Of a stretch of DNA of 41,925 nt, positions 9,830-40,357 are shown in pieces. A model generated the notes under the pieces. That model saw only the letters and a list, made by a program, of their open reading frames with translations, did not search any database and was not told where the DNA came from. A program made the position numbers and the translations under genes. This stretch comes from an uncultured bacterium (GTDB lineage: Bacteria > Bacteroidota > Bacteroidia > Bacteroidales > CAIWKO01). Each line of letters opens with the position of its first letter. The first letter of the stretch is position 1. The stretch lies in the NCBI GenBank assembly GCA_903862465.1, contig CAIOYH010000190.1:1-41925 (forward strand). The letters are read 5' to 3'.

Positions 9830-11521
9830 CTAATAACTCAAGCCCGAATGTTTCTTTCCATGACAAGTAAGATAGCACTTGCCATGATTTTCGCCCGTAT
9901 CTTCATAGCGCAACAACCCGTCGGCTTCCTGAGCAAAACCTTTGCCAGTGTTGAAATTAATAAGATGAGTGCTACTCTGAGGACTTGCCTGACTGCTACT
10001 AATGCCGTGGGAATCGTGACATGCCACACACGAAATGGCTTGCTGCGCCACATGCAATTTGTGATACGCAAACGTTTGGTCGCTCAAAATGGAGTTCCTG
10101 TCATGACAGCTATAACAAAGGGCATAAGCCATCACCGATTCAGGCGAATACGCTGAGCGATTATAATTGGATTTCAATATCTGTGGATATATAGAGCCAT
10201 GCGGACCGGCAGGCGAATTGGCGCCATCACTAGTATGACAATCGGAACAATAAATCATGCTCGTGGTGGTCAAAGGAGAAATCAAACTCGGCACATTATT
10301 ATTTTTGCCGATAGCCGCCACGGGATGATATGAATAGTTTCCCGGGTCAAACTCCATCCGAACATTATTTTGTGCAATCACGTGTGTTACTGAACTGGGT
10401 GTGACAGCATTTTGCGAATGGCAACGATAGCATATTTCGTATTCATAAGCCACCGATTCCACCACCGTGCCTGCCTGCGATATGCCTTGAACTCCTGCAT
10501 TCGAAGCTTTTACATTGGGGGCAGTGGCGTCTGCATGTTTGGCAGCATGTGCATTATGACAATCGGAACACTCCACATGTTTATCTTTGGGTATGCCCAC
10601 TTCAATCGGATTATGCACTCCAACATATCCCGAAACATTATGCCGATATGATTTCACAAACTGCTGCTGAATATTGGTTGTTGCTACATTGCCGTTATGA
10701 CAATCATAGCAATTGTCTTCTTCTTTGCGATATTTCATTAAGCGTTCTTTGCCACCCGCATTATGAGGATTGTGGCAATTTTCGCAAGCATTGGTAGCCA
10801 CAGTGGTATATGGGGTATGAAACCATGGATTTTCACCATTCCCATTCCAAGTATTGTTGGATGTTTGGTGGGAACTTGCCATCCAATTATTAGTTTTATG
10901 ACAAGAAAGACATAGGTTGGATGATTGATTTGTAGCCACAAGAAAATTATTATAAATGTCCTTATGCGGATCGTGACAGGAGGTGCATTGCAGTTTCCCT
11001 TTTTCAAGTTGCACCGGAAACATTATATCCGTAGGCTTGTTTAACTCTTTATCTTTTACAGCAAGGGCAGCATCATACACAAATGAAATTGGGTGGTCGT
11101 CAGATAAATCCGTAGTCAAATTTGATTTGCCGATGGGCATAGTAGTCACACCTTTATTAAATTCAACACCGGGTTTCGAAATAAGATTGCCCAAAGCTAT
11201 AGTTCCGTCATGACACGACAGGCATAAAATTGAAGAGCCATCAGGCTGTCCGGGCAAAGCATCTAAGGTAGAACTATTGTATAATAAATAAGCTGCTCCC
11301 GATTTATTTCTATTCCAAAGGGGAGCAATAGGCGCAGATGTATGAGTGGTATGGCAAAAAATGCAAATCTCCGATTCGCTTTGAGCTTTTATAGTTCCCG
11401 GACCTCTTACGGAAAGATTATGAACAGAATTTACCACCGATTGTCCGCTAACCATAAAAGGAATTAAAAACAAAAAAAGTAGATAGTGTTTTTGCATAGC
11501 TTTCTTATTTTTTATCATCAT
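9830..11521 (-). CDS. Secreted dodecaheme c-type cytochrome (doubled CXXCH type)
   Basis: 563 aa with an N-terminal signal peptide (HYLLFLFLIPFMVSGQ). There are eleven CXXCH heme sites and a twelfth, CX3CH (CYLTCHG), close to the C-terminus. Sites come in pairs with many CHxPH and CHDxH extensions, as in the doubled CXXCH (PF09699) class, which stacks hemes for long-range electron transfer. The first ~225 residues align with the whole 219-aa cytochrome at 12857, and the last ~250 align with the C-terminus of the 1761-aa cytochrome at 20792. The start at 11521 overlaps the upstream NHL gene by 17 bases. An alternative ATG at 11497 would leave a 7-base gap and a shorter signal peptide. No T9SS sorting domain is visible, so it may be periplasmic or surface-exposed. 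Its electron partner is unknown. Confidence 0.85.
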   Translation of the reverse strand: MMIKNKKAMQKHYLLFLFLIPFMVSGQSVVNSVHNLSVRGPGTIKAQSESEICIFCHTTHTSAPIAPLWNRNKSGAAYLLYNSSTLDALPGQPDGSSILCLSCHDGTIALGNLISKPGVEFNKGVTTMPIGKSNLTTDLSDDHPISFVYDAALAVKDKELNKPTDIMFPVQLEKGKLQCTSCHDPHKDIYNNFLVATNQSSNLCLSCHKTNNWMASSHQTSNNTWNGNGENPWFHTPYTTVATNACENCHNPHNAGGKERLMKYRKEEDNCYDCHNGNVATTNIQQQFVKSYRHNVSGYVGVHNPIEVGIPKDKHVECSDCHNAHAAKHADATAPNVKASNAGVQGISQAGTVVESVAYEYEICYRCHSQNAVTPSSVTHVIAQNNVRMEFDPGNYSYHPVAAIGKNNNVPSLISPLTTTSMIYCSDCHTSDGANSPAGPHGSIYPQILKSNYNRSAYSPESVMAYALCYSCHDRNSILSDQTFAYHKLHVAQQAISCVACHDSHGISSSQASPQSSTHLINFNTGKGFAQEADGLLRYEDTGENHGKCYLTCHGKKHSGLSY

Positions 11522-12521
11522 ATTTTAATTGAAAAATCTGTACTCTTGAATTATAACTGTCTGCAATATAAATAAAATCTTTCTTATCAATAAATATGCC
11601 CACCGGCATCCAAAATTCACCTTGATAGCGTCCTTGAGAACCAAAATTATATAAAAACATTCCTGATTTATCAAAAATCTGAACACTGTTAAACAAGGCA
11701 TCCACCACATAAATATTACCTCGGGAGTCGGTTGCTATTCCTTTCGGGCGGGCTAAATAACCTGTTGCATCTCCTATCTTCCCAAAACTCGAAACAAAAG
11801 ACCCATTTTTATCCAATATTTGTATGCGGAAGTTAAGGGCATCCACAATATAAGCTGTTCCTGTATTATCTATCCAAATAAATGTAGGATAATTAAACTC
11901 CAAGTTGCCGTTGCCTCTTTGCCCAATTCGTCTCAACAATTTTCCTTTACTATTTAAAATAGATATCCTATGTGCAGCGGTTTCAACAACCCAAATCTCA
12001 TCTGTAGCATTTGAATAGGCTATTCCGGTGGGCTGCATCAAATCGAGCGAATCGTTGAGAGTTGATAATTCTGTTTTGTCTTCATTAATCTTGTATATTT
12101 TTTTTAAGTGGGAGTCCGTAAAAAGAATTCCACCATCTTTAAAATTGCATATTCCCACCATAGAGGTGAAATCGGTAAATCTTTTTCGTAGATGTTTTGG
12201 GACATCAAAAGACATATTTTGAATTTGAAATATAAGTCCGTTTGCCTGATCTATCACCATAAAAGTGTCAGGATTTGAAGCTACCACATTCATGGGTTTG
12301 TTAATATTCGGAATATTTCTCTTGCCAAACACAACATTTTTAAACTTTTCACCTTTACTAGAAACTACCTTATCCGTTTTTAAAGAAGGAAATTCTTTCA
12401 CCCAACTAATATAACTATCATTCCTAAAATTCCTGCCAACAACAGAGTCTTGTGCTAAAACACCATTGGCTGTGATGAAGCAAAAGAATGGAAGTAATAT
12501 AAAATAATGTGTTGCTTTCAA
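11505..12521 (-). CDS. Secreted NHL-repeat beta-propeller protein
   Basis: 338 aa with a signal peptide (HYFILLPFFCFITANGVLAQ). From about residue 90 on it has repeated NHL blades of the form P.GIA...G.IYVVDA.NsRVQIFD, for example ARPKGIATDSRGNIYVVDA and NFRIQILDKNG. These fit a six-bladed propeller, which serves as a binding scaffold rather than a typical enzyme. It is the first gene of a two-gene unit with the dodecaheme cytochrome, and the two frames overlap. A -7 element lies at 12553-12560. Two other cytochrome units in this window also begin with an NHL gene, so a role in docking or assembling cytochromes is a reasonable inference. Confidence 0.85.
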   Translation of the reverse strand: MKATHYFILLPFFCFITANGVLAQDSVVGRNFRNDSYISWVKEFPSLKTDKVVSSKGEKFKNVVFGKRNIPNINKPMNVVASNPDTFMVIDQANGLIFQIQNMSFDVPKHLRKRFTDFTSMVGICNFKDGGILFTDSHLKKIYKINEDKTELSTLNDSLDLMQPTGIAYSNATDEIWVVETAAHRISILNSKGKLLRRIGQRGNGNLEFNYPTFIWIDNTGTAYIVDALNFRIQILDKNGSFVSSFGKIGDATGYLARPKGIATDSRGNIYVVDALFNSVQIFDKSGMFLYNFGSQGRYQGEFWMPVGIFIDKKDFIYIADSYNSRVQIFQLKYDDKK

Positions 12522-12552
12522 AACAAAAGTATTAATTTCGGATTTATAACTG

Positions 12553-12560
12553 CAAAATTA
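12553..12560 (-). promoter_or_regulatory. -7 element of the NHL/dodecaheme unit
   Basis: TAATTTTG on the minus strand, a perfect TAnnTTTG, sits 31 bases upstream of the ATG at 12521. The 335-base divergent region 12522-12856 otherwise holds only a second -7 element for the plus-strand gene. Confidence 0.5.
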
Positions 12561-12787
12561 AAAAAATAAATTAAACAGATTGAATTATTGTTCACAGCAA
12601 AATTCTCTCTTCGGAATAATTTGGATTACAGAAATAGGTACTAGAACACCTAAATAACAGATAATATGTTATGTAAATAACTATACTATTTTTTCTGGAG
12701 ATATATGCATTAAAAGTAAGAGTGTTAAGTTTTCTAAATTTTGACAAATATCAGCTAAAACTTTAATGCGCCAACTGTGGAATGTAG

Positions 12788-12795
12788 TATCTTTG
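12788..12795 (+). promoter_or_regulatory. -7 element of the tetraheme gene
   Basis: TATCTTTG, a perfect TAnnTTTG, lies 61 bases upstream of the ATG at 12857. A weak upstream candidate TTTA is at 12762-12765, 22 bases away. It is divergent from the promoter at 12553-12560. Confidence 0.5.
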
Positions 12796-12856
12796 TAAAA
12801 ATTTTCAATTTGCCGGAAAAAGAAAATGAACAATTAAATCTAATACTAACTTAAAA

Positions 12857-13516
12857 ATGAAAACAATGAAAATTAGAACATTTATTTTAGGAGTTGCATT
12901 AGCGACTTTAGCTCAGGTATCCTTTGGGCAGATTACTGGAACACCACATGACATGTCGAGCCATTTGTGGAACACAGGAACCACAAACAAATTATGTGGA
13001 ACATGTCACACACCCCACAACTCTATGACAATATCGCAAGCTCCTTTATGGAGTCACGATACGACAACATCTTCTTACACGATGTACACGAGTGCAGTTT
13101 CTTCAACATTTAATGCTACACCCGGAACAAGACCTGATGGAAATTCAAAATTATGTTTAAGCTGCCATGACGGTACAGTTGCTTTGAATGATTTTATTGG
13201 TGCTCAGGCTCCTGTAAGTGGTACTTTGGGAACAGAATATCCCGGTACAACTACTTTAATAGGAACTAACCTTTCAAACGACCATCCAATATCATTTACA
13301 TATGATGCAACATTAGCCACAACCGATGGTGGATTATACAATCCTGTAACTACACTGTCGGGCTTATCTTCAGGTGGTCATATTGATGATGACATGTTAT
13401 ACAATCACAAAATGCAATGTGCATCGTGCCACAATCCACACAACAACACTTATACAAAATTCCAAAGAATGTCGAACAATGCAAGTCAGCTTTGTTTAAA
13501 ATGTCACAACAAATAA
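12857..13516 (+). CDS. Secreted tetraheme c-type cytochrome
   Basis: 219 aa with a clear signal peptide (ILGVALATLAQVSFGQ). Four CXXCH sites are present: CGTCHTPHNS, CLSCHDGT, CASCHNPH and CLKCHNK, the last at the very C-terminus. Shared landmarks PDGxSxLCLSCHDGTxAL and LSxDHPISFxYDAxLA show that it is a stand-alone version of the N-terminal ~225 residues of the dodecaheme protein encoded divergently at 9830-11521. It has its own promoter and a strong terminator (13545-13570), so it can be regulated apart from both neighbouring cytochrome units. It is probably a periplasmic or surface electron carrier. Confidence 0.9.
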   Translation: MKTMKIRTFILGVALATLAQVSFGQITGTPHDMSSHLWNTGTTNKLCGTCHTPHNSMTISQAPLWSHDTTTSSYTMYTSAVSSTFNATPGTRPDGNSKLCLSCHDGTVALNDFIGAQAPVSGTLGTEYPGTTTLIGTNLSNDHPISFTYDATLATTDGGLYNPVTTLSGLSSGGHIDDDMLYNHKMQCASCHNPHNNTYTKFQRMSNNASQLCLKCHNK

Positions 13517-13544
13517 GATTGTTTTAAAATTAGTAAAGTTAAAT

Positions 13545-13570
13545 AAAAAAGGTGTAATTACACCTTTTTT
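13545..13570 (+). terminator. Rho-independent terminator after the tetraheme gene
   Basis: A perfect palindrome GGTGTAATTACACC is flanked by six A (13545-13550) and six T (13565-13570), 29 bases after the stop codon. The symmetric A and T tracts make it potentially bidirectional. Confidence 0.9.
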
Positions 13571-13587
13571 ATTTTATATCCAACTCA

Positions 13588-13619
13588 TTTGGCGGAACTC
13601 AAATAGTATTTAATTTTTG
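13588..13619 (+). promoter_or_regulatory. Promoter of the porin-cytochrome operon
   Basis: TTTG at 13588-13591, a 20-base gap and AATTTTTG at 13612-13619 (one mismatch to TAnnTTTG) form a good Bacteroidota promoter. Transcription would start at about 13626. This favours the second ATG (13646) over ATG 13625 as the start of the next gene. Confidence 0.5.
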
Positions 13620-13624
13620 CACAG

Positions 13625-14767
13625 ATGGATAAATTTTTATCAAAAATGAATAACTCAGTGTATCGTTATATTCTTTTTTTTGTCTTAGCAGTAATTCTTT
13701 ACTCCTGCAATAAACACGTAGTCCCCCAGGGTACTATAATTTACCCCATTCCGCCTGATACGGCAAGAATTCAATTTCTTACTCGTTATAGTGGTTCGCA
13801 GGATATAGTAAAGCAGTCGAAATTTACCAAATTTATTTTAGGCGAAAACAAACCATTGACCATTTTCAAGCCTTATGGAGTGGCTATCCACAATGGGAAA
13901 ATTTATGTTTGCGATAATGGGATTGCCGGGGTAGAGATAATAGGCTTGGAGAACAAAACCTTCAGTTATTTTGTTCCCAAAGGCAATGGTCAACTAAAAA
14001 GCCCTTTGAATTGCAATCTCGACGAAAAAGATAATTTATATATTGCAGATGGCGATAGAAAACAAATAGTGGTATTTGACAATAAAGGAGCATATTTGAA
14101 TTCGTTTGGGGAGAAGGAGAAGTTTAAACCAACAGACGTATTTATATATGGAAACAAGATTTGGGTTGCAAACGTACTGAACAATAAAATTTATGTTTAC
14201 GACAAAGATTCAATAGGCAAGTTATTATTCACATTTCCGGAAGCGGCACAAGGCGATGAGGACTATTTATATTCTCCTGTAAATCTATTTGTACAAAACG
14301 ATAAAGTATATGTGTCAGACCTCGGTGGATTTAATGTAAAGGTGTTTGACATTAGTGGAAAATATTTGCAGACCATTGGAAGCTTTGGAAATAGTCCGGG
14401 GCAGTTTAGCCGAAATAAAGGAATTTGTGCTGACAAGAATGGCAACATTTATGTGGTGGATGCAAGTTTTGAGAATGCTCAGATATTTAATAAAGAAGGA
14501 AAGCTTTTAATGGCTTTTGGAGGACCTTATAACAGGCAAGGAGATATGTGGCTGCCTGCCAAAATTACGTTGGATTATGATAATCTCGCCTATTTTCAAC
14601 AGTATGTGAATCCTAAGTATAGATTAAAATATATATTGTTGGTCACAAATCAGTACGGTCCCGATAAATTGTCTGTCTATGGTGCTATTGAATTGAATCC
14701 AAATTATAAGGCAGGAGCCAACAATACATCACAACCTATAGAAAAGAAAAAAAATAAAAAGAATTAA
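13625..14767 (+). CDS. NHL-repeat lipoprotein heading the porin-cytochrome operon
   Basis: 380 aa from ATG 13625. ATG 13646 may be the true start, because the promoter would begin transcription close to 13626. A hydrophobic stretch ends in a lipobox (VILYSC), so the protein is probably anchored in a membrane by lipid. Repeated NHL blades follow, including KPYGVAIHNGKIYVCDNG, LYIADGDRKQIVVFDNKG and FSRNKGICADKNGNIYVVDA, a six-bladed propeller fold. The C-terminus is Lys-rich (EKKKNKKN). It is followed after 21 bases by a pentaheme lipoprotein, then by a beta-barrel and a nonaheme gene. The likely role is a scaffold or docking partner in this complex; no enzymatic motif is seen. Confidence 0.85.
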   Translation: MDKFLSKMNNSVYRYILFFVLAVILYSCNKHVVPQGTIIYPIPPDTARIQFLTRYSGSQDIVKQSKFTKFILGENKPLTIFKPYGVAIHNGKIYVCDNGIAGVEIIGLENKTFSYFVPKGNGQLKSPLNCNLDEKDNLYIADGDRKQIVVFDNKGAYLNSFGEKEKFKPTDVFIYGNKIWVANVLNNKIYVYDKDSIGKLLFTFPEAAQGDEDYLYSPVNLFVQNDKVYVSDLGGFNVKVFDISGKYLQTIGSFGNSPGQFSRNKGICADKNGNIYVVDASFENAQIFNKEGKLLMAFGGPYNRQGDMWLPAKITLDYDNLAYFQQYVNPKYRLKYILLVTNQYGPDKLSVYGAIELNPNYKAGANNTSQPIEKKKNKKN

Positions 14768-14788
14768 TAGTTTTATTACGTTTAGAGG

Positions 14789-15358
14789 ATGCTGAAAGGA
14801 TTCAAAAAAAACATAAACTACCTAATTTTATTTGCTCTTGTTGCAGCGTTTACTTGCTGTTCGCCAAAGAATAAGTTTAAGGTACTTTCGTTTTTATTTG
14901 ATGGCGTTCCGCAAGAGGTTGTTTCGGATAGCATTTCAAAACCTATTAAGGCAATTGTTGTTGACACCTCTACTAATAAGGAAGTAGTAGCAGAAATCAA
15001 GACTACAGCTTCGATTCACCCTCCATTTAAGGAGAATAACTGCAAAGCTTGTCATGATCAATACGCTGTAAGTTTCTCTTCCGCTCCTTTACAAAAAATC
15101 TGTTATCAATGTCATGATGATTTTGGAACGAAATTTACGTTTCTGCACGGACCTGTTGCAAGCGGCTATTGTATCGGATGTCATAATCCACACAATGCTG
15201 ATTTTCCCAAACTATTGAAACGAAAAGATCAAGATGTTTGTTTATATTGCCATACTATAAAAGACATTAAACAAAATGAAGTTCATACAGATATTGGAAC
15301 AGCAAATTGTACGGAATGTCATAATCCACACGGTGGGGATAATCAATATTTCTTATAA
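14789..15358 (+). CDS. Pentaheme c-type cytochrome, lipoprotein
   Basis: 189 aa. Its signal peptide ends in AAFTCCSP, consistent with a lipobox cysteine. Five CXXCH motifs lie in the C-terminal half: CKACHDQ, CYQCHDD, CIGCHNPH, CLYCHT and CTECHNPHG. Between anchor and hemes is KVLSFLFDGVP, a motif that I associate with cytochromes encoded beside outer-membrane barrels in Bacteroidota and Deltaproteobacteria; this is recall, not a search. It ends 3 bases before the next ATG, so it is tightly coupled to the beta-barrel gene. The likely position is the inner face of the outer membrane, feeding electrons into the barrel-bound complex. Confidence 0.85.
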   Translation: MLKGFKKNINYLILFALVAAFTCCSPKNKFKVLSFLFDGVPQEVVSDSISKPIKAIVVDTSTNKEVVAEIKTTASIHPPFKENNCKACHDQYAVSFSSAPLQKICYQCHDDFGTKFTFLHGPVASGYCIGCHNPHNADFPKLLKRKDQDVCLYCHTIKDIKQNEVHTDIGTANCTECHNPHGGDNQYFL

Positions 15359-15361
15359 TTC

Positions 15362-17371
15362 ATGCTCATGAGATTATTATTAGCCATATTGTTTGTTTCT
15401 ATTGTTTCACATGAGGTGTATTCACAAGGATATCGGGGGCGTGTCCGAGATTTGAATCCCTACACCGATGCAATCTACGACGGAAGACCAAAAGGAAAGT
15501 TCTTCGCATTAAACCATTTTGGCGGAGAATTAAAATTGAAAGGCTTTTATAGAGATCAAATCACATGGCGAAACGGCGTAAAGGATAAACAACAATCCAC
15601 AAATATTTCAGGAGGACTTCATTTTAAAGCGGGTGGTTATTTTTGGAATCCGAGCTTCCTTTTATTGGATGTTGACGCTGAATATAATCCCGAAAGCCAT
15701 CATGAACGCTACTTGATTATGCCGGATTTGGGTGAGGTGAACACCATGAAAAATCTCGATATTCGAGCTGTATTTCTGAATCAGAAGAAGGTTACCTTTG
15801 GTGGCAATCTTACTTTTAATGAGAATTACAGCAACAGAGAGAACTTGTCAGATATTCGGTCGAGAAGCAAAAATTATGGTGCTTTTTTGAACATCGTGAA
15901 TAAGTATGCGCCTATTTCAGTGAACTATGATGTGGGGAAATGGTATCAAAAAGAAATACAAACAGGGAGAACTATAAATTGCAATCAGAGTGAGTTGAGA
16001 AGCCGAATACAAACTCGTTTCTCAAAATGGGATTTGCATGATTTGACGTATTCTCATGCTGTTTTTGCACGTGATGATTATGATTTATACAAAAGTAAAA
16101 GCATTACGGATCAACTTATTTTGAACGATGAAGTGCATTTTGATAAAAATAAACACTACCGTCTTAATGTTATCACGAGTGCTTTCGGTAGAAAAATTAG
16201 TTCCAATTATACGCGAATCAGCAATCAAGAAAACTTTATGGCAGAGATGCCTAAGAATTTTAACCTGAATGCCACTTATGCCTTTTATCACATCGAACAA
16301 GATTGGCAAAAACTGAATCAACATAGCATAAATGCTGTTCTTGGACATAAATTGTTCAATAGCTTAAGTACAGATGTTTTTGGCGGATACAATTATTCTT
16401 CCCACAGTCAGTTCAAAGGATCCGAAAGCAAAATAGGTTTTGACGTGCGCTATACGAAAAAGATTTTTTGGAAGGGCAATCTTTGCTTATCCTATAAATT
16501 TGCATATAACCATAAAGACCACGAAAGTTCCTCCACCAGTATCAATGTAATTAATGAGGAATATACATTGACAGATGGCAAAATAACCTTAATTGACAAA
16601 CCGTATATTGAACTTTCGACTTTCAATGTTACGGATATCACAGGAACTATCTTCTATCAAAACAATTTGGATTATATGCTCATCAAGCAAGGGAATTATT
16701 TAGAAATCCAACGTATTCCAGGAGGACAAATCACAAACGGTGGGACGGTTTATATCAGCTATACGTATGTGCAGCCGGGCAATTACCACTATAATTCCGC
16801 CTCGCATGGCTTTGGAGCACGACTTGCTTTCTTTAAAAACATTCTAGAGTTTTATTACAATTATAATGAGCAGGATTATATCAAATTGGTTCGAACTGAG
16901 TTTCTGCAATTAAACACCTTTACACAAAATACCTTGGGAATGCGTGTCAATTATAAGTTTGTTTCGGGTGGCGTGGAGTATGATGATTACAAAAGCAATA
17001 TTGTTCCTTATTATTCCACCAATTACTTTTTGCAATTGCAAGGACACTTTTTCAAGCATTTGGAAGGCTCTTTAAACGGGAATTTGCGGTATATGACTTT
17101 GACAAACGGGCTGATTAAACAAAAGTTTGCAAGTGTTTCGGCTATGCTTTCTTATGCCATACATTCTCGAACAAAGATTAGTATTCAGGGAAGTTATATG
17201 CACGAGGATTATCAAAGTGTGAATTTAGACTTGTTGATGGCAGGGGCAGACGTCACCACTTCGATACGGAAAATGTATTTTTCTTTAGGCTATCAGTTAT
17301 ATAGACGCAATTATTTAAGCGAACAAATCAATTATAATGGTGGATATGTTCAAATTTCACGTAAGTTTTAA
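15362..17371 (+). CDS. Outer-membrane beta-barrel of a porin-cytochrome complex
   Basis: 669 aa with a signal peptide (LLAILFVSIVSHEVYSQ). The mature part is a long series of amphipathic strands with alternating aromatic residues and short turns, and it ends in aromatic Phe (VQISRKF), the usual C-terminal signature of a BAM-inserted barrel. No plug domain or TonB box is visible. It lies between a pentaheme lipoprotein gene (3 bases before) and a nonaheme gene (15 bases after). This order matches porin-cytochrome systems, in which a barrel sheathes cytochromes to pass electrons across the outer membrane. The role is inferred from context and fold; the sequence itself is not a recognised MtrB or OmbB. 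Confidence 0.75.
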   Translation: MLMRLLLAILFVSIVSHEVYSQGYRGRVRDLNPYTDAIYDGRPKGKFFALNHFGGELKLKGFYRDQITWRNGVKDKQQSTNISGGLHFKAGGYFWNPSFLLLDVDAEYNPESHHERYLIMPDLGEVNTMKNLDIRAVFLNQKKVTFGGNLTFNENYSNRENLSDIRSRSKNYGAFLNIVNKYAPISVNYDVGKWYQKEIQTGRTINCNQSELRSRIQTRFSKWDLHDLTYSHAVFARDDYDLYKSKSITDQLILNDEVHFDKNKHYRLNVITSAFGRKISSNYTRISNQENFMAEMPKNFNLNATYAFYHIEQDWQKLNQHSINAVLGHKLFNSLSTDVFGGYNYSSHSQFKGSESKIGFDVRYTKKIFWKGNLCLSYKFAYNHKDHESSSTSINVINEEYTLTDGKITLIDKPYIELSTFNVTDITGTIFYQNNLDYMLIKQGNYLEIQRIPGGQITNGGTVYISYTYVQPGNYHYNSASHGFGARLAFFKNILEFYYNYNEQDYIKLVRTEFLQLNTFTQNTLGMRVNYKFVSGGVEYDDYKSNIVPYYSTNYFLQLQGHFFKHLEGSLNGNLRYMTLTNGLIKQKFASVSAMLSYAIHSRTKISIQGSYMHEDYQSVNLDLLMAGADVTTSIRKMYFSLGYQLYRRNYLSEQINYNGGYVQISRKF

Positions 17372-17386
17372 TCTAAAACGACAGCT

Positions 17387-18262
17387 ATGAGTGGTGTTCA
17401 ATTATTCTTTTATGTGTTGTTTTTGGGTTTCGGATGGAATTCGCCTCAACTCAAACAAACGAAGGCGGAGTGCTTGGATTGTCATAAGCAGCTTGTCGCA
17501 GAAAAAGTGATACATCCCGTGGCTGAAGGTTGCGACAATTGCCATGTTGCTAACGGCAAGGAGCATCCTCAACCAAAAATAATTGGATTTTCGTTGGCTG
17601 ATACGGTTCCGAATTTATGTTTTACATGCCATGATGAATTGAAGACTACCATACAGTCGTCGGCAGTAACACATGGGGCGGTGCGCTCAAAAAAATCGTG
17701 CACATCTTGCCATTCACCTCACTCATCGCCTAACGATAAAATGCTTTTGGCTGATGGAAAAGACTTATGTTTGAGTTGTCATAATAAAATTATTACTACC
17801 GATAGTATTCAAATTCCAAATATGAAATCCCTGCTCGATAATAGCAAAGTGATACATGGTGCCATAGATGCAGGAGGATGCATTGCTTGTCATAATCCTC
17901 ACGCTTCGAATCATCAGTTTCTGTTGAAAGAAAACTTCCCGCAAGGAATTTATGCCGAAGGAAAAACAGAAAATTATACTTTATGTTTTACATGCCACGA
18001 TAGTCAACTATTGACCGAAGCCACCACAACAAGTGCCACTCAATTTAGAAATGCAGACAAGAACCTGCATTTTGTGCATCTGCAAGGCAAAAAAGGTAGA
18101 GCTTGCACGGTCTGCCATAATGTGCATGGGTCAGCTAATATGCATCTATTAAATGATGCTACAACTTTTGGCAATTGGCAGATGCCCATCCGCTATAAAC
18201 CTGTGGAGGGAGGCGGTTCGTGCTACCCGGGATGCCATGGGGAAAGAGCGTACAAGAATTAA
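17387..18262 (+). CDS. Nonaheme c-type cytochrome, last gene of the porin-cytochrome operon
   Basis: 291 aa with a short N-terminal hydrophobic segment (VQLFFYVLFLGFGW), a weak signal peptide with no lipobox. Eight CXXCH sites are seen (CLDCH, CDNCH, CFTCH, CTSCH, CLSCH, CIACH, CFTCH, CTVCH), plus a ninth CX3CH site, CYPGCHG, eight residues from the C-terminus. Repeated CHxPH(A/S)S segments mark the doubled CXXCH type. The C-terminal CX3CHG resembles those of the 563-aa and 1761-aa cytochromes. Expected to be the periplasmic or external electron partner of the barrel; which side cannot be decided here. Confidence 0.85.
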   Translation: MSGVQLFFYVLFLGFGWNSPQLKQTKAECLDCHKQLVAEKVIHPVAEGCDNCHVANGKEHPQPKIIGFSLADTVPNLCFTCHDELKTTIQSSAVTHGAVRSKKSCTSCHSPHSSPNDKMLLADGKDLCLSCHNKIITTDSIQIPNMKSLLDNSKVIHGAIDAGGCIACHNPHASNHQFLLKENFPQGIYAEGKTENYTLCFTCHDSQLLTEATTTSATQFRNADKNLHFVHLQGKKGRACTVCHNVHGSANMHLLNDATTFGNWQMPIRYKPVEGGGSCYPGCHGERAYKN

Positions 18263-20791: not shown

Positions 20792-23700
20792 TTAATTATA
20801 TGCGGGATTATAAGATTTTCCACCACCATGAGAGGTTCCATGGCAGGTTACATTGCAAGTGTTTGCAGCGGTTCCGGCAGCATGCACAAAGGCGGCTTGC
20901 GTGTTTGTGGTTACTGCCGTGATGCAGGCTCCCCCTGTTTGATTTCTGCTAAAATTAATAAGATGCAACTGCTCGCTTCCGTGCGAATCATGGCAAATAT
21001 AGCATCCTTCCTGAGTTTTATTCGCCACGTGATAATAATGATATCCATAGCGCGAGCTTGTGTTGCCAGAGATATAAGAAGCCGCTTGATGGCATTTGGT
21101 ACAGAAATCGGTGGTGGAAGTATTCACGGCATTATGCACAGATTTATATCCTGAGTTACCCCCTGTTCCGGCATCTAAAATATGCAGGTTTTGCGAGCCA
21201 TGCGGACCGCGACCATAGCCCGCCGTAGCATTTTGGTTGTCGTTATGGCAATCCGTACAATACATTCTTGAGGTATAAGAATAACCCGTTTGGAAGGTAG
21301 CTGCATTGATGTTTAAGTTAGTCCCGGCGGCTATTATAGGATGAAAAGAAGCATTGCTTGGATTAAACTCTTGTGCCATATCGCGCGAATCGGCAATTTG
21401 GGTGTTGGTTCCGCCTGTAGTCAGTTTCTTGAGTCCATCCACGGCATCAGCAGTTCCTGACCATCCCGCAGGCAAATAGCTGGGCAAAGTGGTGTAGCTA
21501 GAGTGGCATTTAAAACAAACTTGATATTCATAGGTGGCGTTATCCAGATAGGTGAATCCGGTGGGTGCGCCTGCACCCGTGTATATAGGGTTCACACCCG
21601 AAGCACCTATCAATTCGTTATAAATGGTGGGTGCCACGGTAGCCGTGTATGCTTTTGCACTATGCGGATTATGGCAATCCACGCATTCCACATGACGGTT
21701 GGCGCCACCAAAGGAGGTGCCCAAATATTCTTCATTGGTGTGTTTTCTGTACGATGCCGTTACGTCGTGCTTTCTAATTGCCGTTGCGGTATTGGTGTTT
21801 GCAAACGAAAGGTGAACCTTAACTGATGCTTCTCCACCCGCACCATGACACGAAAAACAGAAGCCTTCTTCCTCATTCGTCACATCAGTACCGGTGCCCA
21901 AACCTGTGTAATCGTATGGTGCCAACAAGGTGCTTTTGTTCGAACCATGTCCATTATCATGACAATCCATGCAGGTGTAAGGATGGGCTTTGTGTGCCGA
22001 GGCAGTCCACAAAGTTTTATTAAAGATAGGAACAGTAACATTATCAGAAAACGGAGTAACATCGCCACCTGCCCCATCAGCATCGTGACAATTTATGCAG
22101 AAGTTTTCTACCGAAGATTGAACTAAGGGATTATAGGTAATCACTTTCAGGTAGCCCGAATCAGGGTCCATCAGCTTCACGGCGCCTCTCATGTGGTCGC
22201 CCATATAATGACACAAAATACAATCCGTAGCATTGGGCACCGAGCCCGTTACGTGATGAGAAGTGCGCTTAAAATCTCCACCCAAACCCGTACCATTACC
22301 ATTGGCATCCACAATTTGTCTTCTCCCTCCCGAAGGACCTACGCCTGCTTTATCCGTAATTGCTTTATGACAATCCAAACAATTGGTTTGTGCATAAAAA
22401 GCATCTTCATGCGGATGGCAGGTGATGCAAGTCTGCGTTGCAGGAACGTGACGAGCATCGCTAGTAACACCCGAAGTATTGGAGTAATGATCTGTTGCGG
22501 TATGGCATGCTTCGCAAACGCCTGTAAACGGACTAGATGCTGCACCATAATCTGAGCCGGAAGCCCGAGCCACAAACACCACGGGTTTCAAACCGCTATT
22601 AGGAGTATTGATAGTGTCGCGAATAAGCATGATGTTGGTCAACCCAGCTTTATGCGTGATATGACAGGTGATACAACTCATCCCTTCGTGAACCAAACTC
22701 CTACGAGGAGCTAAGGAAACGTGGCATTTCTTGCACAAATCATCACTATAATTCATGCGAAGAATATAACCATCCGTAGAAGTGGAATTATGAGGCTGAT
22801 GACAACTGGAACATTCTACTTTGGCAGTTAATAACGTCATGGGAGTTTGAGGACTAGAAAAGAAACGTGGGTCAGAACCATTATACGTAAGCCCAACCGG
22901 ATGGCTACCGATATTTACACCGGGATTATCAACATAACGACCTACATTGCGCACCGAATGACATTCTTTACATAGCGCATCACCATCATTCGGCATACGC
23001 AAAAAGTTGGGAGAAGCAACCGAATGTTGATTATGGCAGGTGGAACAGATAAAATGATTATTGTCTAAACGCGTAAGCATATCCGTGTTGGCAGGAAGGC
23101 TTGCGCCATATTTATAATTCACCGCTAAGGCATCCCAAGTATGCGATGTTCCACTAACACCGGGAACCGCTTTCATAGCATTATCCATCGGGTTTTGATA
23201 CGCAGTACCTGCCGGATTATGGCAACTGATGCACAAATTGGCATTGCCATTCACAATGGCAAGTGCGGTTCCGTAAGATGTATGGGTGATATGACATTGG
23301 CTGCAACTATTATGAGGTACAGTTACGCTCACAGCTAAACTGGGTGTAGAACTTGTGCTGCACGAATTGGTCGCATATACGGTAATATTACCATTCTGTC
23401 CACCAATGCCGGTAGTAACCACTATAGAATTAGTTCCATTTCCTGATGTGATTGTCCATCCGGTAGGCACTGTCCAAGTGTAACTAGTTGCTCCGGTCAT
23501 TGCTGTAATGCTATAGAGAACTCCCGTTTGCATTGGAGCAACAACGGGAGCACCTGTAATTGTGCCCGGAGAACCTAAAAGCGGAATTAAGGTTATGGTT
23601 TTGGCATACGAACTGCTTACGCATCCTGTAGTGCTGTTTCTGACTGTTACTGTATAATTATAGGTTCCTCCAATGGCTCCGGCAGGTACAACTAATACAA

Positions 23701-26077
23701 TCTGACTTGCAATCAACGTTGCATTTGTAACATTAATAAACCCCTGTGTCAATGCCGTTGCATCATACACTATACTATATTGATTAGGAGTTCCGGTTGT
23801 TGCACTGTAGGTTAGATTTGCTGATGTAACACCAGAACATATCGTAGGATTTGTACCCAATGTAATGGTTGGTATCGCGTTAAGAGTAACTACTGCGCTG
23901 CCCTGAGTTCCCCAACATGTTCCTGCATCACGAGCTCTAAAGTAATACGTACCATTCGCAGCAACCGTTTGGCTTGAAGATGGAGTGGTTATTGAAGTTC
24001 CATTTGTTGTGGTGTTTTGCCAATAAATAGTGCCGCCAACTCCTCCTGATGCATTTAATGTGGCACTAGTTGCGCAAAAACTTCCACCACCTGTAACGGT
24101 AACTGCAGTAGGGGTTGTTCCCATAGTAACCGTAGCGCTACCTTGAGTTCCCCAACAACCTAAAGCGGTTCGGGAACGGAAATAATACGTGCCCGAAGCA
24201 CTCACGCTTTGCGAGCTTGATGGCGTTGCTGTTGAAGTTCCTCCTGTGGTGGTATTTTGCCAGTAAATAGTGCCGCCTGTTCCTCCACTTGCGGTTAAAG
24301 TTACGCTAGGCACACTACAAAAATTACCTCCTCCGGCAACAGTCACAGCAGTTGGTAATGGATTAATAGTAACTGTTGCACTTCCTTCAGCACCCCAACA
24401 TGTGCCATTAAGTGCCCTGAAATAATAGGTGCCACTAGCGGCAACCGCCTGACTTGAAGAAGGGGTTGCTGTTGAAGTTCCACCGCTAGTAGTATTTTGC
24501 CAGTAAATAGTTCCGCCTGTGCCGCCTGTTGCTGTTAAGGTAGCGGTTCCGCAAAACGTACCACCGCCACTAACCGTAACAGCAATGGGAACAGTGGTGA
24601 TGGTTACTGTTGTGCTTCCTTCAGTTCCCCAACAAGAAGTTCCATCGTAAGCTCTATAATAATAGGTTCCACTTGCCCCCACCGTTTGGCTTGAGGAAGG
24701 TGTTGCAGTGGATGTTCCTCCACTTGTGGTATTTTGCCAATATATTGTTCCGCCTGTTCCTCCACTTGCGTTTAACGTAGTAGTGCCTCCGCAAAATGTA
24801 CCTCCTCCACTCACTAATACTGCCGTAGGTGCAGAACTTAAAGTCTGCGTTCCACTGGCAGTGGTGGGTCCACCTGCTAAAATTGCAGTACTTGTCATAT
24901 CTGTTGAATTCGAACCGCTAACAGTAAGGGTATTCCCAACACCAACAGTGGATGCAATATCCGCAGTAATCCAGAAATAATAGGTGCCAACAGGAATATT
25001 CAACGAAAAAGCTGTGAACGTTTGTATCCCCGGACCGGTAGGGGTTACGTCTGTTGCCAATAAGGTAGCCGAAGCTAAACTATTTGTACTGTTCCACCAT
25101 ATTTTAAAATTTGTTATATCAGAAGCAACGTAGGAGCCTGTTGTGGTAAACTGAAAATTTGTTAATGTGCCCGTAGTTCCACTACTGATAATATTAAAAG
25201 CATGAATTGGTACATTTAATGAAGATGCACAAACAGAAGCTGCGCTTACGGATGTGGTAGGGTTCGATACAGTAAGAGTAGGGGGAACATACATAGGTAA
25301 GCTCATTGCTGACATTGCCCAACGTATTTGATTCGCAGGTGTAATAGCAGAGGTAGTAGCATTGTCTGTTGTATTTGCACCTGAAATTGTACGTTTTGCT
25401 ACTTCAGTTTTCCAACCTATGGTACCATTATTATTTGAGTTATTACCTCCTGAAGTCCAATTTGCATTAATTGTATAGGTGGGCACTGTTGTATTTGCGC
25501 AATACATACTTGAAATATATACCGCCTGTTGATTTGCATTCACAGCCATTGCAGCACTTAATTGTGTAGGACCGCTTCCGGCAGCAGTACCAATACCGGT
25601 TCCTACTGTATAGCTTGCAGGAGCCTGATCAACTCCGGCAAATACAGAATACCATACCGAAATATTTGCCTGTGTATTAGCTAAAGTAACAAGTAGGGAT
25701 CGGGAGGTGCCATCCATAACCGCATTATCTTTTAAATAATATAACCAGGTGTGTGTCCTCCCGCTCGTGGTACCATTTGTTGTAGCTAATGTCAAGGTTA
25801 CGCCACCATACGAAATAGTTGTCGGGTTTGCTTGTGTTGCAGAACCAGTTGTAGTATTTGTTATGCCAACAATAAGCATGCGATTTAAACCCGCTGCAAC
25901 AGAAAGTGAATAGCCTGTGCACGTACCGGATACTTGATCATAGGCTTTTGTCCAAGCAATGGGTTGGGTAATTTGCGCAAAGCTCGGATTACTACCAACA
26001 AAGATTAACCCAACTATTATTTGAAATACACCTTTCAGTATATTCATAGATTTTTTTGAGATATAATAATGTCTCAT
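20792..26077 (-). CDS. Giant surface multiheme cytochrome with Ig-like repeats (20 heme sites)
   Basis: 1761 aa. A signal peptide (FQIIVGLIFVGSNPSFAQ) follows either ATG 26077 or ATG 26047. Residues ~35-900 form a stalk: an N-terminal beta-sandwich region, a second beta domain, four near-identical Ig-like repeats of ~80 residues (GGGTFC then IYWQNTT then GTYYFRA and CWG), and two PKD/Ig-like domains. Residues ~918-1761 carry nineteen CXXCH sites and a twentieth, CX3CH (CNVTCHGTSHGGG), near the C-terminus. The C-terminal heme region aligns with the last part of the 563-aa cytochrome (HVECxDCHNxHxAK, MYCTDCH, GPHGS, CHDSHG, HLINF). No T9SS sorting domain is apparent at its own C-terminus. It follows the 909-aa NHL/T9SS gene by 13 bases. 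The combination suggests a long heme wire displayed on an Ig stalk outside the cell, by inference. Confidence 0.85.
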   Translation of the reverse strand: MRHYYISKKSMNILKGVFQIIVGLIFVGSNPSFAQITQPIAWTKAYDQVSGTCTGYSLSVAAGLNRMLIVGITNTTTGSATQANPTTISYGGVTLTLATTNGTTSGRTHTWLYYLKDNAVMDGTSRSLLVTLANTQANISVWYSVFAGVDQAPASYTVGTGIGTAAGSGPTQLSAAMAVNANQQAVYISSMYCANTTVPTYTINANWTSGGNNSNNNGTIGWKTEVAKRTISGANTTDNATTSAITPANQIRWAMSAMSLPMYVPPTLTVSNPTTSVSAASVCASSLNVPIHAFNIISSGTTGTLTNFQFTTTGSYVASDITNFKIWWNSTNSLASATLLATDVTPTGPGIQTFTAFSLNIPVGTYYFWITADIASTVGVGNTLTVSGSNSTDMTSTAILAGGPTTASGTQTLSSAPTAVLVSGGGTFCGGTTTLNASGGTGGTIYWQNTTSGGTSTATPSSSQTVGASGTYYYRAYDGTSCWGTEGSTTVTITTVPIAVTVSGGGTFCGTATLTATGGTGGTIYWQNTTSGGTSTATPSSSQAVAASGTYYFRALNGTCWGAEGSATVTINPLPTAVTVAGGGNFCSVPSVTLTASGGTGGTIYWQNTTTGGTSTATPSSSQSVSASGTYYFRSRTALGCWGTQGSATVTMGTTPTAVTVTGGGSFCATSATLNASGGVGGTIYWQNTTTNGTSITTPSSSQTVAANGTYYFRARDAGTCWGTQGSAVVTLNAIPTITLGTNPTICSGVTSANLTYSATTGTPNQYSIVYDATALTQGFINVTNATLIASQIVLVVPAGAIGGTYNYTVTVRNSTTGCVSSSYAKTITLIPLLGSPGTITGAPVVAPMQTGVLYSITAMTGATSYTWTVPTGWTITSGNGTNSIVVTTGIGGQNGNITVYATNSCSTSSTPSLAVSVTVPHNSCSQCHITHTSYGTALAIVNGNANLCISCHNPAGTAYQNPMDNAMKAVPGVSGTSHTWDALAVNYKYGASLPANTDMLTRLDNNHFICSTCHNQHSVASPNFLRMPNDGDALCKECHSVRNVGRYVDNPGVNIGSHPVGLTYNGSDPRFFSSPQTPMTLLTAKVECSSCHQPHNSTSTDGYILRMNYSDDLCKKCHVSLAPRRSLVHEGMSCITCHITHKAGLTNIMLIRDTINTPNSGLKPVVFVARASGSDYGAASSPFTGVCEACHTATDHYSNTSGVTSDARHVPATQTCITCHPHEDAFYAQTNCLDCHKAITDKAGVGPSGGRRQIVDANGNGTGLGGDFKRTSHHVTGSVPNATDCILCHYMGDHMRGAVKLMDPDSGYLKVITYNPLVQSSVENFCINCHDADGAGGDVTPFSDNVTVPIFNKTLWTASAHKAHPYTCMDCHDNGHGSNKSTLLAPYDYTGLGTGTDVTNEEEGFCFSCHGAGGEASVKVHLSFANTNTATAIRKHDVTASYRKHTNEEYLGTSFGGANRHVECVDCHNPHSAKAYTATVAPTIYNELIGASGVNPIYTGAGAPTGFTYLDNATYEYQVCFKCHSSYTTLPSYLPAGWSGTADAVDGLKKLTTGGTNTQIADSRDMAQEFNPSNASFHPIIAAGTNLNINAATFQTGYSYTSRMYCTDCHNDNQNATAGYGRGPHGSQNLHILDAGTGGNSGYKSVHNAVNTSTTDFCTKCHQAASYISGNTSSRYGYHYYHVANKTQEGCYICHDSHGSEQLHLINFSRNQTGGACITAVTTNTQAAFVHAAGTAANTCNVTCHGTSHGGGKSYNPAYN

Positions 26078-26090
26078 GCTAGACTATTTT

Positions 26091-28820
26091 TTAATGAGTT
26101 AAAATTAATTTGGTAGTTTTTGTCATATCTGGTAGCAATAGTTTGATGAAATAAACCCCTGAAGCCATTCCTCCTAAATTGATACGTTCGGAATATTTTG
26201 TTGAATTCAAATTCTTAGCATAAACTTCTTGACCAATAGAGTTGACTATGTCTATTTTAATTGGTTTAGCGTTAGGATTGTTTATTTCTAATGTAAAAAT
26301 ACCATTCGTAGGATTTGGATAAATTGAGACAGAAACAGAAGAATTCACTTCTTCAATAGACGTTGTAATTAGATTTATGGTGTCATAAACAATCACCTCA
26401 CTGCAAGATGCATTCGATGCAGTCAAACTCACATAATAGGTCCCCTCACTACTATAAGTGTGGGTAGGATTCGCCAGATTGCTTGTTTGCCCATCGCCAA
26501 AACTCCAAAGATAGGTGTCAGCATTCTGTGTAACATTATTGAACGTACAAGTTGTATTGTTGACTGTATAATTGAATTCGGCAATAGTAGGAATATTTAT
26601 TGTAACAACAGCACTGCCACTAAAAGTATAATTACTACATATCATATCACTAAGAGAAATTACTTGATAAGTCCCAGGTGTGCCTATTTCAATCACATAG
26701 GGCGAACTTATTATATTATTCTCTGTAACAGGAACACCATCAACAGTATAAGTAAGGTTCCAAGGCGGACTCCCAATTAGGTCGAAAGATATATCAGTTG
26801 TTTGACCTTCACAAATAGCGATATTTTCATTTGTAATGGCAGCCGTTGGGGCAGGATTAATATTTATAACAGCATCACCTGGAAGAATTTCCCCATAACA
26901 ACCTCCCGTTGAAACTGAAACTAAGCTATAGGTGCCGGCTTGAGATGTTGGAATGGAATAATTATTAGCAGAAATTCCGGTGAAGAAGATAGTATCTGTC
27001 CCATTGACAGTACAACTGAAATTAAATGGTCCGATGCCGCTCAGTATAAAATCCAAGTTTGCTGTTTCGCCACTGCATAGCGTTGAGGTGTTGGGCACGA
27101 TGGCTGCTGTTGGGATAGGGTTGGTGCTTACCTGAGCTGTTCCAGAAAAAGTTCCTACTTCACAATTGGCATCCGAAATGGCAGATACCTGATAGGTTCC
27201 GGCAGTTGATATTGTAAGTGAATAATTATTATCAAGAATATTATTCACACTAATCGGGTTACCACTATCAACTGTGTATGTTAAATTCCAAGGTGCAGTT
27301 CCTGTTAAATGAATTGGTATATCTGTGCTTTGCCCAGCACATAAAGTTATAGTTGAATTACTGATAAGGGCAGTGGGTGCTTGATTTATTGAGACATTTG
27401 CCATTCCTGTAAAATCTGTTCCATTACAACCTCCGCCATTTACCGAAGTAAGCGTATATACTCCGGAAGTAGCACCAAGAATAGCATAGGAATCAGCATA
27501 AATATTATTTATAGTTGTTGGACTTAAACCATCAACCGTATATGTGAAACTATAAGGTTTGGAGCCTGAAAAATTAACAGGCACATCTATTGTAGTGCCC
27601 GAACAAGTAGAAATAGTTTGGTTACTTAGCGATGCCGTGGGCGTAGGGTCAACAATTACATTGGCACTCCCCGTAAAGCAAGCACCCGTGTTGGTAGCAT
27701 CATTTAATGCACTAACAGTATATCTCCCTGCATTAGTTGTGGTAATAGTATAAGGATTGTCTGTTACATTTGAAATAGTGGTAGGAGAGGTGCCATTTAT
27801 TGTATAAGTGAATGTCCAGGGTGCTGTTCCGGTAAACGAAATAGGAATATATGTAGTATCGCCGTCGCAAATACTATGCGTGCTAACAGGGATGTTTGAT
27901 GTAGGCAATAGATTCGTGATACTATAAACTTCCATGGCTCCATTGTTCAACGAACTCACCCACAATTTTTGATTTGCGTCAAAATCAATATCCATCGGTA
28001 CATTCAATTCGCCATTGTTGGTGCCGTACTGACCAAACTTTGTAATAAAAATACCATTAGGTTTAAATACACTTATCGCCCCCTGAAAATCATCCGAAAC
28101 ATAGATATTGCCACATTGCCCAATGGTCATTCCTTGTATGCGATAGAACTTTCCATCCGTGTTTCCATACCCACCGAAGGTGCTGATAAGAGTTCCAATG
28201 AGGTCGAATATTCTAATTTCAGCATGCAAATTAAAACTTGTTCCAACGCCTCCATGTTCTGAAACAATGATGCGGTTGTTTTGTCTATCAAATGCTATAC
28301 ATCTAGGCGCAAGTAAAATACCCGAACCGATGGTTCTGATGATGTTTCCGCCGAAATCCATCACAAGGACTTTATTCGTAATGCCATCCACTACATACAG
28401 CAAATTATCAGGACTTGTAACCATATCTGAGGGGAAAATAATACCCGAATAAATTACCGTTTGATTGCCGTCTCCATCAATTCTTGTAATTTTATTGTTT
28501 TTGCCATCGCCAACGAAGAGAATATTACCATCGCTAAACGCCAAAGAAACAGGTTTCCCTATATAGTCAAGCGTTCCAAGATAATTCCCTGAATTATCAA
28601 ACTTCTTGATTTGTTTAGTAAAATCATCGGCAACGAAAACAATTCCCGAAGTGTTTATGGCAATTCTCGATGGAGCTTTTAAATCAGTAGTTATACTCGC
28701 TTGATGAGCAAAATCAGCAGAAGTGGTCTGCGCTTTGATTACCGTAGAGCATGAAAAAATAAGCATCCAAACGAAAATAAAATGCCTTACATAGTGTGTC
28801 ATGAACATGTTTTTATTCAA
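26091..28820 (-). CDS. T9SS-exported NHL propeller protein with Ig-like repeats and a PKD domain
   Basis: 909 aa. Signal peptide (FIFVWMLIFSCSTVIKAQ), then a six-bladed NHL propeller (about residues 40-310; ITTDLKAPSRIAI, LLYVVDGITNKVLVMD, GNIYVSDDFQGAISVFKPNG). Five Ig-like repeats of ~85 residues follow (TLCAGQSTDIPIHLTGTAPW-type), then a PKD domain (YLWSFGDGQTSNLANPTHTY), and last a type A T9SS sorting domain (SIYPNPTNGIFTLEI to the C-terminus). The sorting domain predicts secretion through the type IX system and attachment to the cell surface. It is the first gene of a unit with the 20-heme cytochrome 13 bases downstream, preceded by a -7 element. It parallels the NHL proteins heading the other two cytochrome units but is the only one with a T9SS signal. 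Confidence 0.9.
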   Translation of the reverse strand: MNKNMFMTHYVRHFIFVWMLIFSCSTVIKAQTTSADFAHQASITTDLKAPSRIAINTSGIVFVADDFTKQIKKFDNSGNYLGTLDYIGKPVSLAFSDGNILFVGDGKNNKITRIDGDGNQTVIYSGIIFPSDMVTSPDNLLYVVDGITNKVLVMDFGGNIIRTIGSGILLAPRCIAFDRQNNRIIVSEHGGVGTSFNLHAEIRIFDLIGTLISTFGGYGNTDGKFYRIQGMTIGQCGNIYVSDDFQGAISVFKPNGIFITKFGQYGTNNGELNVPMDIDFDANQKLWVSSLNNGAMEVYSITNLLPTSNIPVSTHSICDGDTTYIPISFTGTAPWTFTYTINGTSPTTISNVTDNPYTITTTNAGRYTVSALNDATNTGACFTGSANVIVDPTPTASLSNQTISTCSGTTIDVPVNFSGSKPYSFTYTVDGLSPTTINNIYADSYAILGATSGVYTLTSVNGGGCNGTDFTGMANVSINQAPTALISNSTITLCAGQSTDIPIHLTGTAPWNLTYTVDSGNPISVNNILDNNYSLTISTAGTYQVSAISDANCEVGTFSGTAQVSTNPIPTAAIVPNTSTLCSGETANLDFILSGIGPFNFSCTVNGTDTIFFTGISANNYSIPTSQAGTYSLVSVSTGGCYGEILPGDAVININPAPTAAITNENIAICEGQTTDISFDLIGSPPWNLTYTVDGVPVTENNIISSPYVIEIGTPGTYQVISLSDMICSNYTFSGSAVVTINIPTIAEFNYTVNNTTCTFNNVTQNADTYLWSFGDGQTSNLANPTHTYSSEGTYYVSLTASNASCSEVIVYDTINLITTSIEEVNSSVSVSIYPNPTNGIFTLEINNPNAKPIKIDIVNSIGQEVYAKNLNSTKYSERINLGGMASGVYFIKLLLPDMTKTTKLILTH

Positions 28821-32259: not shown

Positions 32260-32260
32260 C

Positions 32261-33877: not shown

Positions 33878-33880
33878 CGT

Positions 33881-37689: not shown

Positions 37690-37701
37690 TTCCTTGATGT
37701 C

Positions 37702-39792: not shown

Positions 39793-39794
39793 TC

Positions 39795-40349: not shown

Positions 40350-40357
40350 TACAATTT

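Follow-up and report, generated by a model that had tools for sequence, protein, structure and literature searches.

A Candidate Nanowire-Coupled Porin–Cytochrome Gene Cluster in an Uncultured Bacteroidales Bacterium

Results

Organization of the Gene Cluster

The 41,925-nucleotide contig CAIOYH010000190.1 (assembly GCA_903862465.1, hereafter the window) of an uncultured bacterium of the Bacteroidales carries a cluster of multiheme cytochrome, NHL-propeller and outer-membrane barrel genes that is described here as a candidate porin–cytochrome conduit coupled to a cytochrome nanowire. The cluster consists of the following genes and features (lengths in amino acids, aa):

9830..11521, minus strand: D12h, 563 aa, 11 CXXCH and 1 CX3CH heme motifs, first third an OmcE-like tetraheme module
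11505..12521, minus strand: NHL2, 338 aa, NHL beta-propeller (Pfam NHL, 6.9e-22)
12857..13516, plus strand: T4h, 219 aa, tetraheme protein, homologue of the OmcE nanowire subunit
13543..13572, plus strand: terminator-like hairpin and T tract 3' of T4h (-13.0 kcal/mol)
13588..13618, plus strand: weak promoter-like site TTTG-N19-TAATTTTT, one mismatch (pattern scan)
13625..14767, plus strand: NHLlipo, 380 aa, NHL propeller with lipobox LYSC (open reading frame (ORF) list, Pfam)
14789..15358, plus strand: P5h, 189 aa, pentaheme lipoprotein (ORF, motif count, match to 6r2q_A)
15362..17371, plus strand: barrel, 669 aa, predicted outer-membrane barrel of about 28–30 strands, uncatalogued family
17387..18262, plus strand: M9h, 291 aa, 8 CXXCH and 1 CX3CH motifs, MtrA/DmsE-like

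The NHLlipo, P5h, barrel and M9h genes lie on the same strand and are separated by 21, 3 and 15 bases. A first-pass annotation, made from the sequence alone, had described these four genes as an NHL lipoprotein, a pentaheme lipoprotein, a 669-aa barrel and a nonaheme protein with gaps of 3–21 bases, and both the ORFs and the motif counts agree with it, the term nonaheme holding if the CX3CH motif is counted. Its four genes were right but its boundaries (13588–18262) were too narrow, missing T4h and the 12-heme OmcE chimera D12h: the unit is larger, and T4h, which ends 108 bases before the start of NHLlipo, belongs to it together with the NHL2–D12h pair (9830–12521), in which NHL2 overlaps the start of D12h by 17 bases.

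The five CXXCH motifs of P5h and the eight of M9h are far above chance, because residue-shuffled versions of the two proteins contained on average 0.04 and 0.07 CXXCH motifs (maximum 2). Lipobox-like stretches end at Cys28 of NHLlipo (LYSC) and at Cys23 of P5h (AFTC). Two Pfam matches of NHLlipo (NHL, 3.6e-10; DUF5128, 2.6e-10) support an NHL or six-bladed propeller, and its true start may be the ATG at 13646.

Homologues of a Nanowire Subunit

The T4h protein contains four CXXCH motifs and aligns over nearly its full length (residues 15–219 to 15–232, phmmer) with the filament chain of PDB entry 7tfs (E = 2e-24), which is OmcE (PMC12954529); a second cytochrome chain, 9yuq, was matched with E = 2e-19. 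The histidines 31, 51, 54, 104, 143, 192, 195 and 217 of T4h align with the OmcE histidines 31, 55, 58, 107, 149, 205, 208 and 230, and these eight ligand positions, as many as four bis-His hemes require, are invariant in all 18 aligned T4h proteins. Judged by sequence, T4h is a homologue of the OmcE nanowire subunit.

A second OmcE module forms approximately the first 190 residues of D12h (residues 19–209 to 7tfs, E = 2.8e-27) and is followed by eight further heme motifs. The D12h head has the same eight histidine positions, one of which is absent in a single locus (L014) where the stretch is gapped. Across 45 aligned OmcE-type modules, six of the eight ligand columns are histidine in every module and two in 44 of 45. 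In a tree of the 45 modules all 16 from D12h cluster together (support 98/95), and D12h therefore probably had a single origin that predates the spread of the cluster between phyla. In the OmcE filament, which has a helical rise of 34 angstrom, neighboring subunits share one heme ligand (PMC12954529), and the N-terminal histidine position of the D12h head could likewise serve a neighboring subunit. D12h is the better conserved protein, with 52–58% identity to the window protein among the Bacteroidota, compared with 34–39% for the barrel. A search of 72,556 plasmids gave no match to D12h.

A hairpin followed by a T tract was found behind T4h in 9 of 16 loci under a stem rule (0.27 expected), in 13 of 16 under a loose rule without a control and in 6 of 16 under a coarse rule (0.12 expected) that missed the window's own hairpin; the 16 loci are the window and 15 of the 18 conserved loci described below (L007, L016 and L023 were left out). 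The frequency of such terminator-like hairpins would fit production of T4h in a different amount, as suits a putative filament subunit that would be needed in excess. A general terminator scan of the window found no enrichment (5 sites, 4.2 expected) and did not list the hairpin at 13543–13572. The promoter proposed in the first-pass annotation does correspond to a site at 13588–13618 that is one mismatch from the Bacteroidota consensus, but the signal is weak, since the window holds 18 sites of this kind where 10.9 would be expected. Sigma-70-like sites show no enrichment in the window either (26 against 23.5 expected).

Lone OmcE-like tetraheme genes were also observed on four viral-classed IMG/VR contigs: L080 (536 kb, 9917–10534), L081 (166 kb, 9992–10633), L082 (181 kb, 9992–10582) and L083 (11.7 kb, 7541–8221). 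All eight ligand histidines are kept in these proteins, two of which match 7tfs with E = 1.8e-31 (L080) and 4.4e-26 (L081). Among the neighbors scanned, L081 has a DnaB-like helicase and an exonuclease and L083 a ribonucleotide reductase. A search of 50,697 phage records with the L080 protein found nothing. The contigs are putatively viral and the genes are possibly phage-borne nanowire subunits.

The Barrel and Its Cytochromes

The barrel protein ends in Phe and has no Pfam family. Among 17 members of the barrel family none had a naming Pfam match (one weak match to DMAP1_like, E = 0.0079), none matched a TonB-receptor or porin family and none matched MtrB_PioB (PF11854), which was found neither in the window barrel nor anywhere else in its genome. 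A search of the PDB gave no sequence match to the barrel with either the single sequence or a profile. By these sequence comparisons the barrel is a family uncatalogued in the libraries used.

An AlphaFold model of the barrel alone, built from 17 sequences, predicts one wide barrel (predicted local distance difference test score (pLDDT) 85.4, predicted TM-score 0.64) in which 28–30 strands were counted and residues 404–474 or so form a small insert. A model from the single sequence was discarded (pLDDT 29.2). In a VIA structure comparison MtrB of the Mtr complex ranked first (Z 17.0, root mean square deviation 9.5, 421 residues aligned), and MtrB also had the top TM-scores (0.42/0.43) among the best 50 Foldseek matches.

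Both P5h (E = 8.3e-14) and M9h (E = 3.7e-6) match chain A of the Mtr complex structure 6r2q, which we take to be MtrA, although the file gives the chain another molecule name. M9h matches TIGR03508 with 1.2e-18 and 67.5 bits, below the cut-off of 192.2, and TIGR03507 (MtrC/OmcA) reached at most 25.2 bits against a cut-off of 209.3 in the ten window proteins scanned. In P5h the lipid cysteine is followed by a conserved KVLSFxFDGVP, and a K-x-LSFFFDGVP-like stretch stands right behind the lipid cysteine across the loci, in a variant form in the Verrucomicrobiota. The P lipoprotein has 5 heme motifs in most loci and 7 to 15 in some. One locus (L018, 9058–14064) combines a P gene split into two ORFs with 8 motifs and an M protein with 25+1 motifs, and another (L012, 11963–13261) has an M protein with 14+1 motifs, which suggests conduits of different length. 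The NHL proteins may have roles in scaffolding, in secretion or in the binding of minerals, an idea that for mineral binding comes from PMC12016550.

Conservation across Genomes and Phyla

A search with a barrel profile returned 18 loci from named genomes, mostly Bacteroidales or Bacteroidetes metagenome-assembled genomes (MAGs, two of them titled LacPavin), one Flavobacteriaceae and one Verrucomicrobia; two of the 18 (L018 and L021) are contigs that are also part of the genome sample, as G065 and G042. NHLlipo and a multiheme lipoprotein with 5–15 hemes are located directly upstream of the barrel in all 18 loci (in L018 the lipoprotein is divided between two ORFs). Seventeen loci contain T4h, and the contig of the remaining one (L016) starts inside NHLlipo. 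An M9h relative follows the barrel in 14 loci, with two contigs (L020 and L022) ending in the barrel. D12h and NHL2 occur together in 13 loci; four contigs end before the pair would be reached and L022 has other genes there.

In 12 of the 18 loci the cluster is accompanied by a histidine kinase with one CXXCH motif and a sigma-54-type regulator, a pair that is possibly a heme-based sensor of the system. The domains were checked for the pair in L004, where a histidine kinase with a CCNCH motif (13174–14625, minus strand) and a sigma-54-type response regulator (11721–13136, minus strand) lie inside the cluster. No such pair stands beside the cluster in the window, where NHL2–D12h is inverted.

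The barrel was found in 2 of 395 sampled genomes of the phylum and in 3 of 98 relatives within the order, each count including the window's own genome, and T4h (E = 1e-20) occurs in exactly the same three relatives. A more distant genome of the phylum (G257, locus L042) carries the whole set without the regulators. D12h was present in 4 of 194 sampled Verrucomicrobiota. In the three of these beyond G505, relatives of T4h, NHLlipo and the barrel (22–27% identity) lie beside D12h; two of the three also have a P-like gene, and one has an M9h-like gene. A scan of genome contigs with the single barrel sequence as query gave no match. One further candidate (G245) showed a weak barrel-profile match over 90 positions and was dropped, its surroundings containing no ORFs of at least 90 aa with heme motifs.

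Candidate Quinol-Side Cytochromes Elsewhere in the Genome

At the threshold used, paired CXXCH motifs in the window's own genome were matched 13 times on this contig, three times on contig 39 and on no other contig. Contig 39 encodes two fusion proteins in which a b561-type cytochrome is combined with 19 and 16 heme motifs, respectively. They are part of a region (L043, 2621–9868) with a cluster of monoheme proteins and a DUF5777 barrel, and their anatomy is CbcL-like. A NapC/NirT protein of 499 aa and 6+1 heme motifs is encoded on contig 107, next to tetraheme, iron–sulfur, NrfD and cytochrome-maturation-like proteins. By anatomy this NapC/NirT protein is ImcH-like, ImcH being a heptaheme protein.

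The NapC/NirT heptaheme is present in 17 of 20 barrel-bearing genomes (the window's own and 16 of 19 others) compared with 11 of 95 order relatives that lack the barrel (Fisher P = 2e-10, in a test that ignores phylogeny and takes its positives from wider taxa). ImcH and CbcL are among the best markers of extracellular electron transfer in metagenomes according to a 2026 study (PMC12977616).

Neighboring Genes

Two further genes of the window may be accessory to the cluster:

20792..26077, minus strand: 1761 aa, PKD-like domain, 20 heme motifs (19 CXXCH and 1 CX3CH)
26091..28820, minus strand: NHL909, NHL and Ig-like/PKD domains with a type IX secretion sorting tail (surface export)

The 1761-aa protein has a weak match in a single conserved locus (L023) and is otherwise without a close homologue, and a homologue of NHL909 adjoins the cluster in 5 of 18 loci. 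The two genes (20792–28820) possibly encode a surface-displayed accessory pair. An efflux-type operon (31237–35200) and potassium-uptake-like (Kdp) genes (35974–41925, plus strand), judged by eye from their ORFs, are ordinary neighbors.

Discussion

A Probable Conduit Coupled to a Nanowire

The cluster is likely to be a nanowire-coupled porin–cytochrome conduit that probably serves the breathing of extracellular solids or partner cells. A porin–cytochrome conduit was also what the first-pass annotation had proposed in kind, and it is supported because a wide barrel is modeled, two cytochromes of the MtrA/DmsE kind adjoin it, the gene order is conserved and the barrel is associated with the NapC/NirT heptaheme. 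Genes, motifs, homologies, gene order, co-occurrence and the barrel model form the basis of this reading, and localization, assembly, polymerization, direction and substrate are inferred from them. Quinol would be oxidized at the inner membrane, with either the NapC/NirT-type heptaheme or a b561-type/multiheme fusion as the oxidizing protein, and periplasmic carriers would bring the electrons to M9h inside the wide barrel. From M9h they would move on to P5h, the lipoprotein on the outer side, and from P5h to D12h, which would couple the conduit to the T4h filament through its OmcE-like head, the filament delivering them to an extracellular acceptor. The NHL propellers would act as scaffold, assembly or docking subunits. 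D12h suggests itself as the piece that would join the filament to the conduit because it places an OmcE head, with the N-terminal histidine position kept, on an eight-heme tail.

Several observations weigh against this reading. The heme counts vary between loci, from 5 to 15 in P and from 8+1 to 25+1 in M, no M9h relative was seen in L006 and L023, and no P gene was seen in L077. The b561/multiheme fusion is patchy (7 of 19 genomes) and the association with the NapC/NirT heptaheme carries the limits of its test given above. Furthermore, the fold match of the barrel to MtrB is tied with LptD, ChuA, BtuB and others. Because unrelated barrels score alike, the match supports a wide barrel in the model and not a relative of MtrB or a conduit.

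The same tie bears on another reading, in which the barrel would be an ordinary transporter and the cytochromes would work for a periplasmic reductase, as large transporter barrels score nearly as high as MtrB. This is nevertheless very unlikely: no TonB-receptor or porin family was matched in the 17 barrel proteins; in all 18 loci the barrel is accompanied by a multiheme lipoprotein and an NHL protein; and no catalytic reductase subunit was recognized by Pfam among the ten window proteins scanned. The conduit might instead be run inward, as has been suggested for Uet in the Tenderiales, with Fe(II), a cathode or partner cells as the electron source. Its gene content does resemble the Uet system of cathode-oxidizing Tenderiales, also found in Gallionella (PMC10734462), but among the proteins encoded in the genome are a NapC/NirT heptaheme and b561-multiheme fusions, types that oxidize quinol for outward transfer (PMC12307469), and inward flow is judged unlikely. 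Outward flow is favored because these proteins could link the conduit to quinol; the direction, on which the first-pass annotation took no side, is not settled, because NapC/NirT-type proteins are also used by iron oxidizers (PMC13264449), and the genome content leans outward.

A conduit could also operate without a nanowire, T4h and D12h being monomeric surface cytochromes whose likeness to OmcE reflects shared ancestry. Homology is no proof of polymerization and the OmcE-like D12h carries eight more heme motifs, yet T4h keeps all eight ligand histidines including the N-terminal one and has a terminator of its own, which leaves this explanation doubtful, if less so than inward flow. Extending the nanowire-coupled conduit to both phyla, the Bacteroidota and the Verrucomicrobiota may, tentatively, own a complete and dedicated OmcE-type nanowire machine composed of a T4h polymer, the new barrel with M9h and P5h, an NHL platform and a D12h plug. 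If so, it would be a first candidate for how a cytochrome nanowire attaches to the cell. A 2025 Geobacter review (PMC12307469), in the sections available, covers both conduits and nanowires but presents no dedicated element that joins OmcE-type filaments to an outer-membrane electron path. The filament gene, the conduit and the OmcE-headed chimera travel together in at least two phyla, so the link can be tested with a handful of genes. The cluster also points to extracellular respiration in the Bacteroidales.

Comparison with Known Systems

The cluster resembles the MtrCAB, MtoAB and PioAB systems in its modeled wide barrel, the adjacent MtrA/DmsE-like cytochrome and the lipoprotein cytochrome, and Mtr porins are predicted to have 28 strands (PMC4245776). 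It differs in a barrel outside the MtrB_PioB Pfam family, in heme numbers of 9 and 5 where those systems have 10 and 10, and in having no MtrC/OmcA-family match above the cut-off; M9h is not a decaheme MtrA/DmsE, yet it is homologous to 6r2q_A. The barrel family and the heme numbers speak against filing the cluster under Mtr.

Porin–cytochrome (Pcc) clusters such as OmbB-OmaB-OmcB and that of Ignavibacterium album share an adjacent porin and two multiheme cytochromes with the window, the membrane sides being inferred. As surveyed in 2014, with one cluster in Ignavibacterium, their periplasmic cytochromes have 5–14 hemes and their outer-membrane cytochromes 1–15 (PMC4245776), and the 9 and 5 hemes that the first-pass annotation had considered unusual fall within these ranges. 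Compared by description, the window barrel has about 28–30 strands whereas Pcc porins have 18–22, and NHL and OmcE-like partners are added; the strand number speaks against filing under Pcc. PCC3 and PCC4 are other porin types (PMC5566968). An NHL subunit does not set the cluster apart either, contrary to the earlier view, because NHL proteins are part of Uet (PMC10734462) and of a Geoalkalibacter ferrihydriticus locus with multiheme cytochromes and an OmcE homologue, in which the authors report that mtoB is lacking (PMC12016550). Desulfovibrio ferrophilus also has multiheme genes next to NHL genes, and its authors find conduits not apparent in the genome (PMC9769857). In both species, as in the window, multiheme cytochromes adjoin NHL proteins.

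By anatomy, the gene content is closest to Uet (UetA-J), and a system of this kind is already known. As described for the Tenderiales and Gallionella, Uet comprises a tetraheme and an 11–12-heme cytochrome, a pair of NHL proteins and a porin (PMC10734462), all with counterparts in the window when compared by anatomy only, D12h being an undecaheme if CXXCH alone is counted. The window cluster has a pentaheme lipoprotein and a nonaheme protein instead of other Uet parts: no peptidyl-prolyl isomerase (UetB) was recognized among the ten window proteins scanned, and the window contains no triheme ORF of at least 100 aa (UetDEG). Without the isomerase and the trihemes, and with a comparison of anatomy and not of sequence, the cluster was not filed under Uet.

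No paper describing this cluster was found in the open-licence library searched; outside it, a 2023 study in Cell, reportedly a survey of cytochrome nanowires, and the OmcE structure and Uet papers could describe it. The OmcE nanowire of Geobacter sulfurreducens (7tfs) and T4h align over nearly the full length, with four hemes and eight ligand histidines in common, but T4h comes from another phylum, its gene is linked to a barrel–cytochrome cluster and its polymerization is putative. What the window adds to these systems is the recognition of the tetraheme protein and of the 12-heme protein's head as OmcE modules, a Bacteroidota and Verrucomicrobiota form with P5h and M9h, an uncatalogued barrel family, and a link to quinol-side cytochromes.
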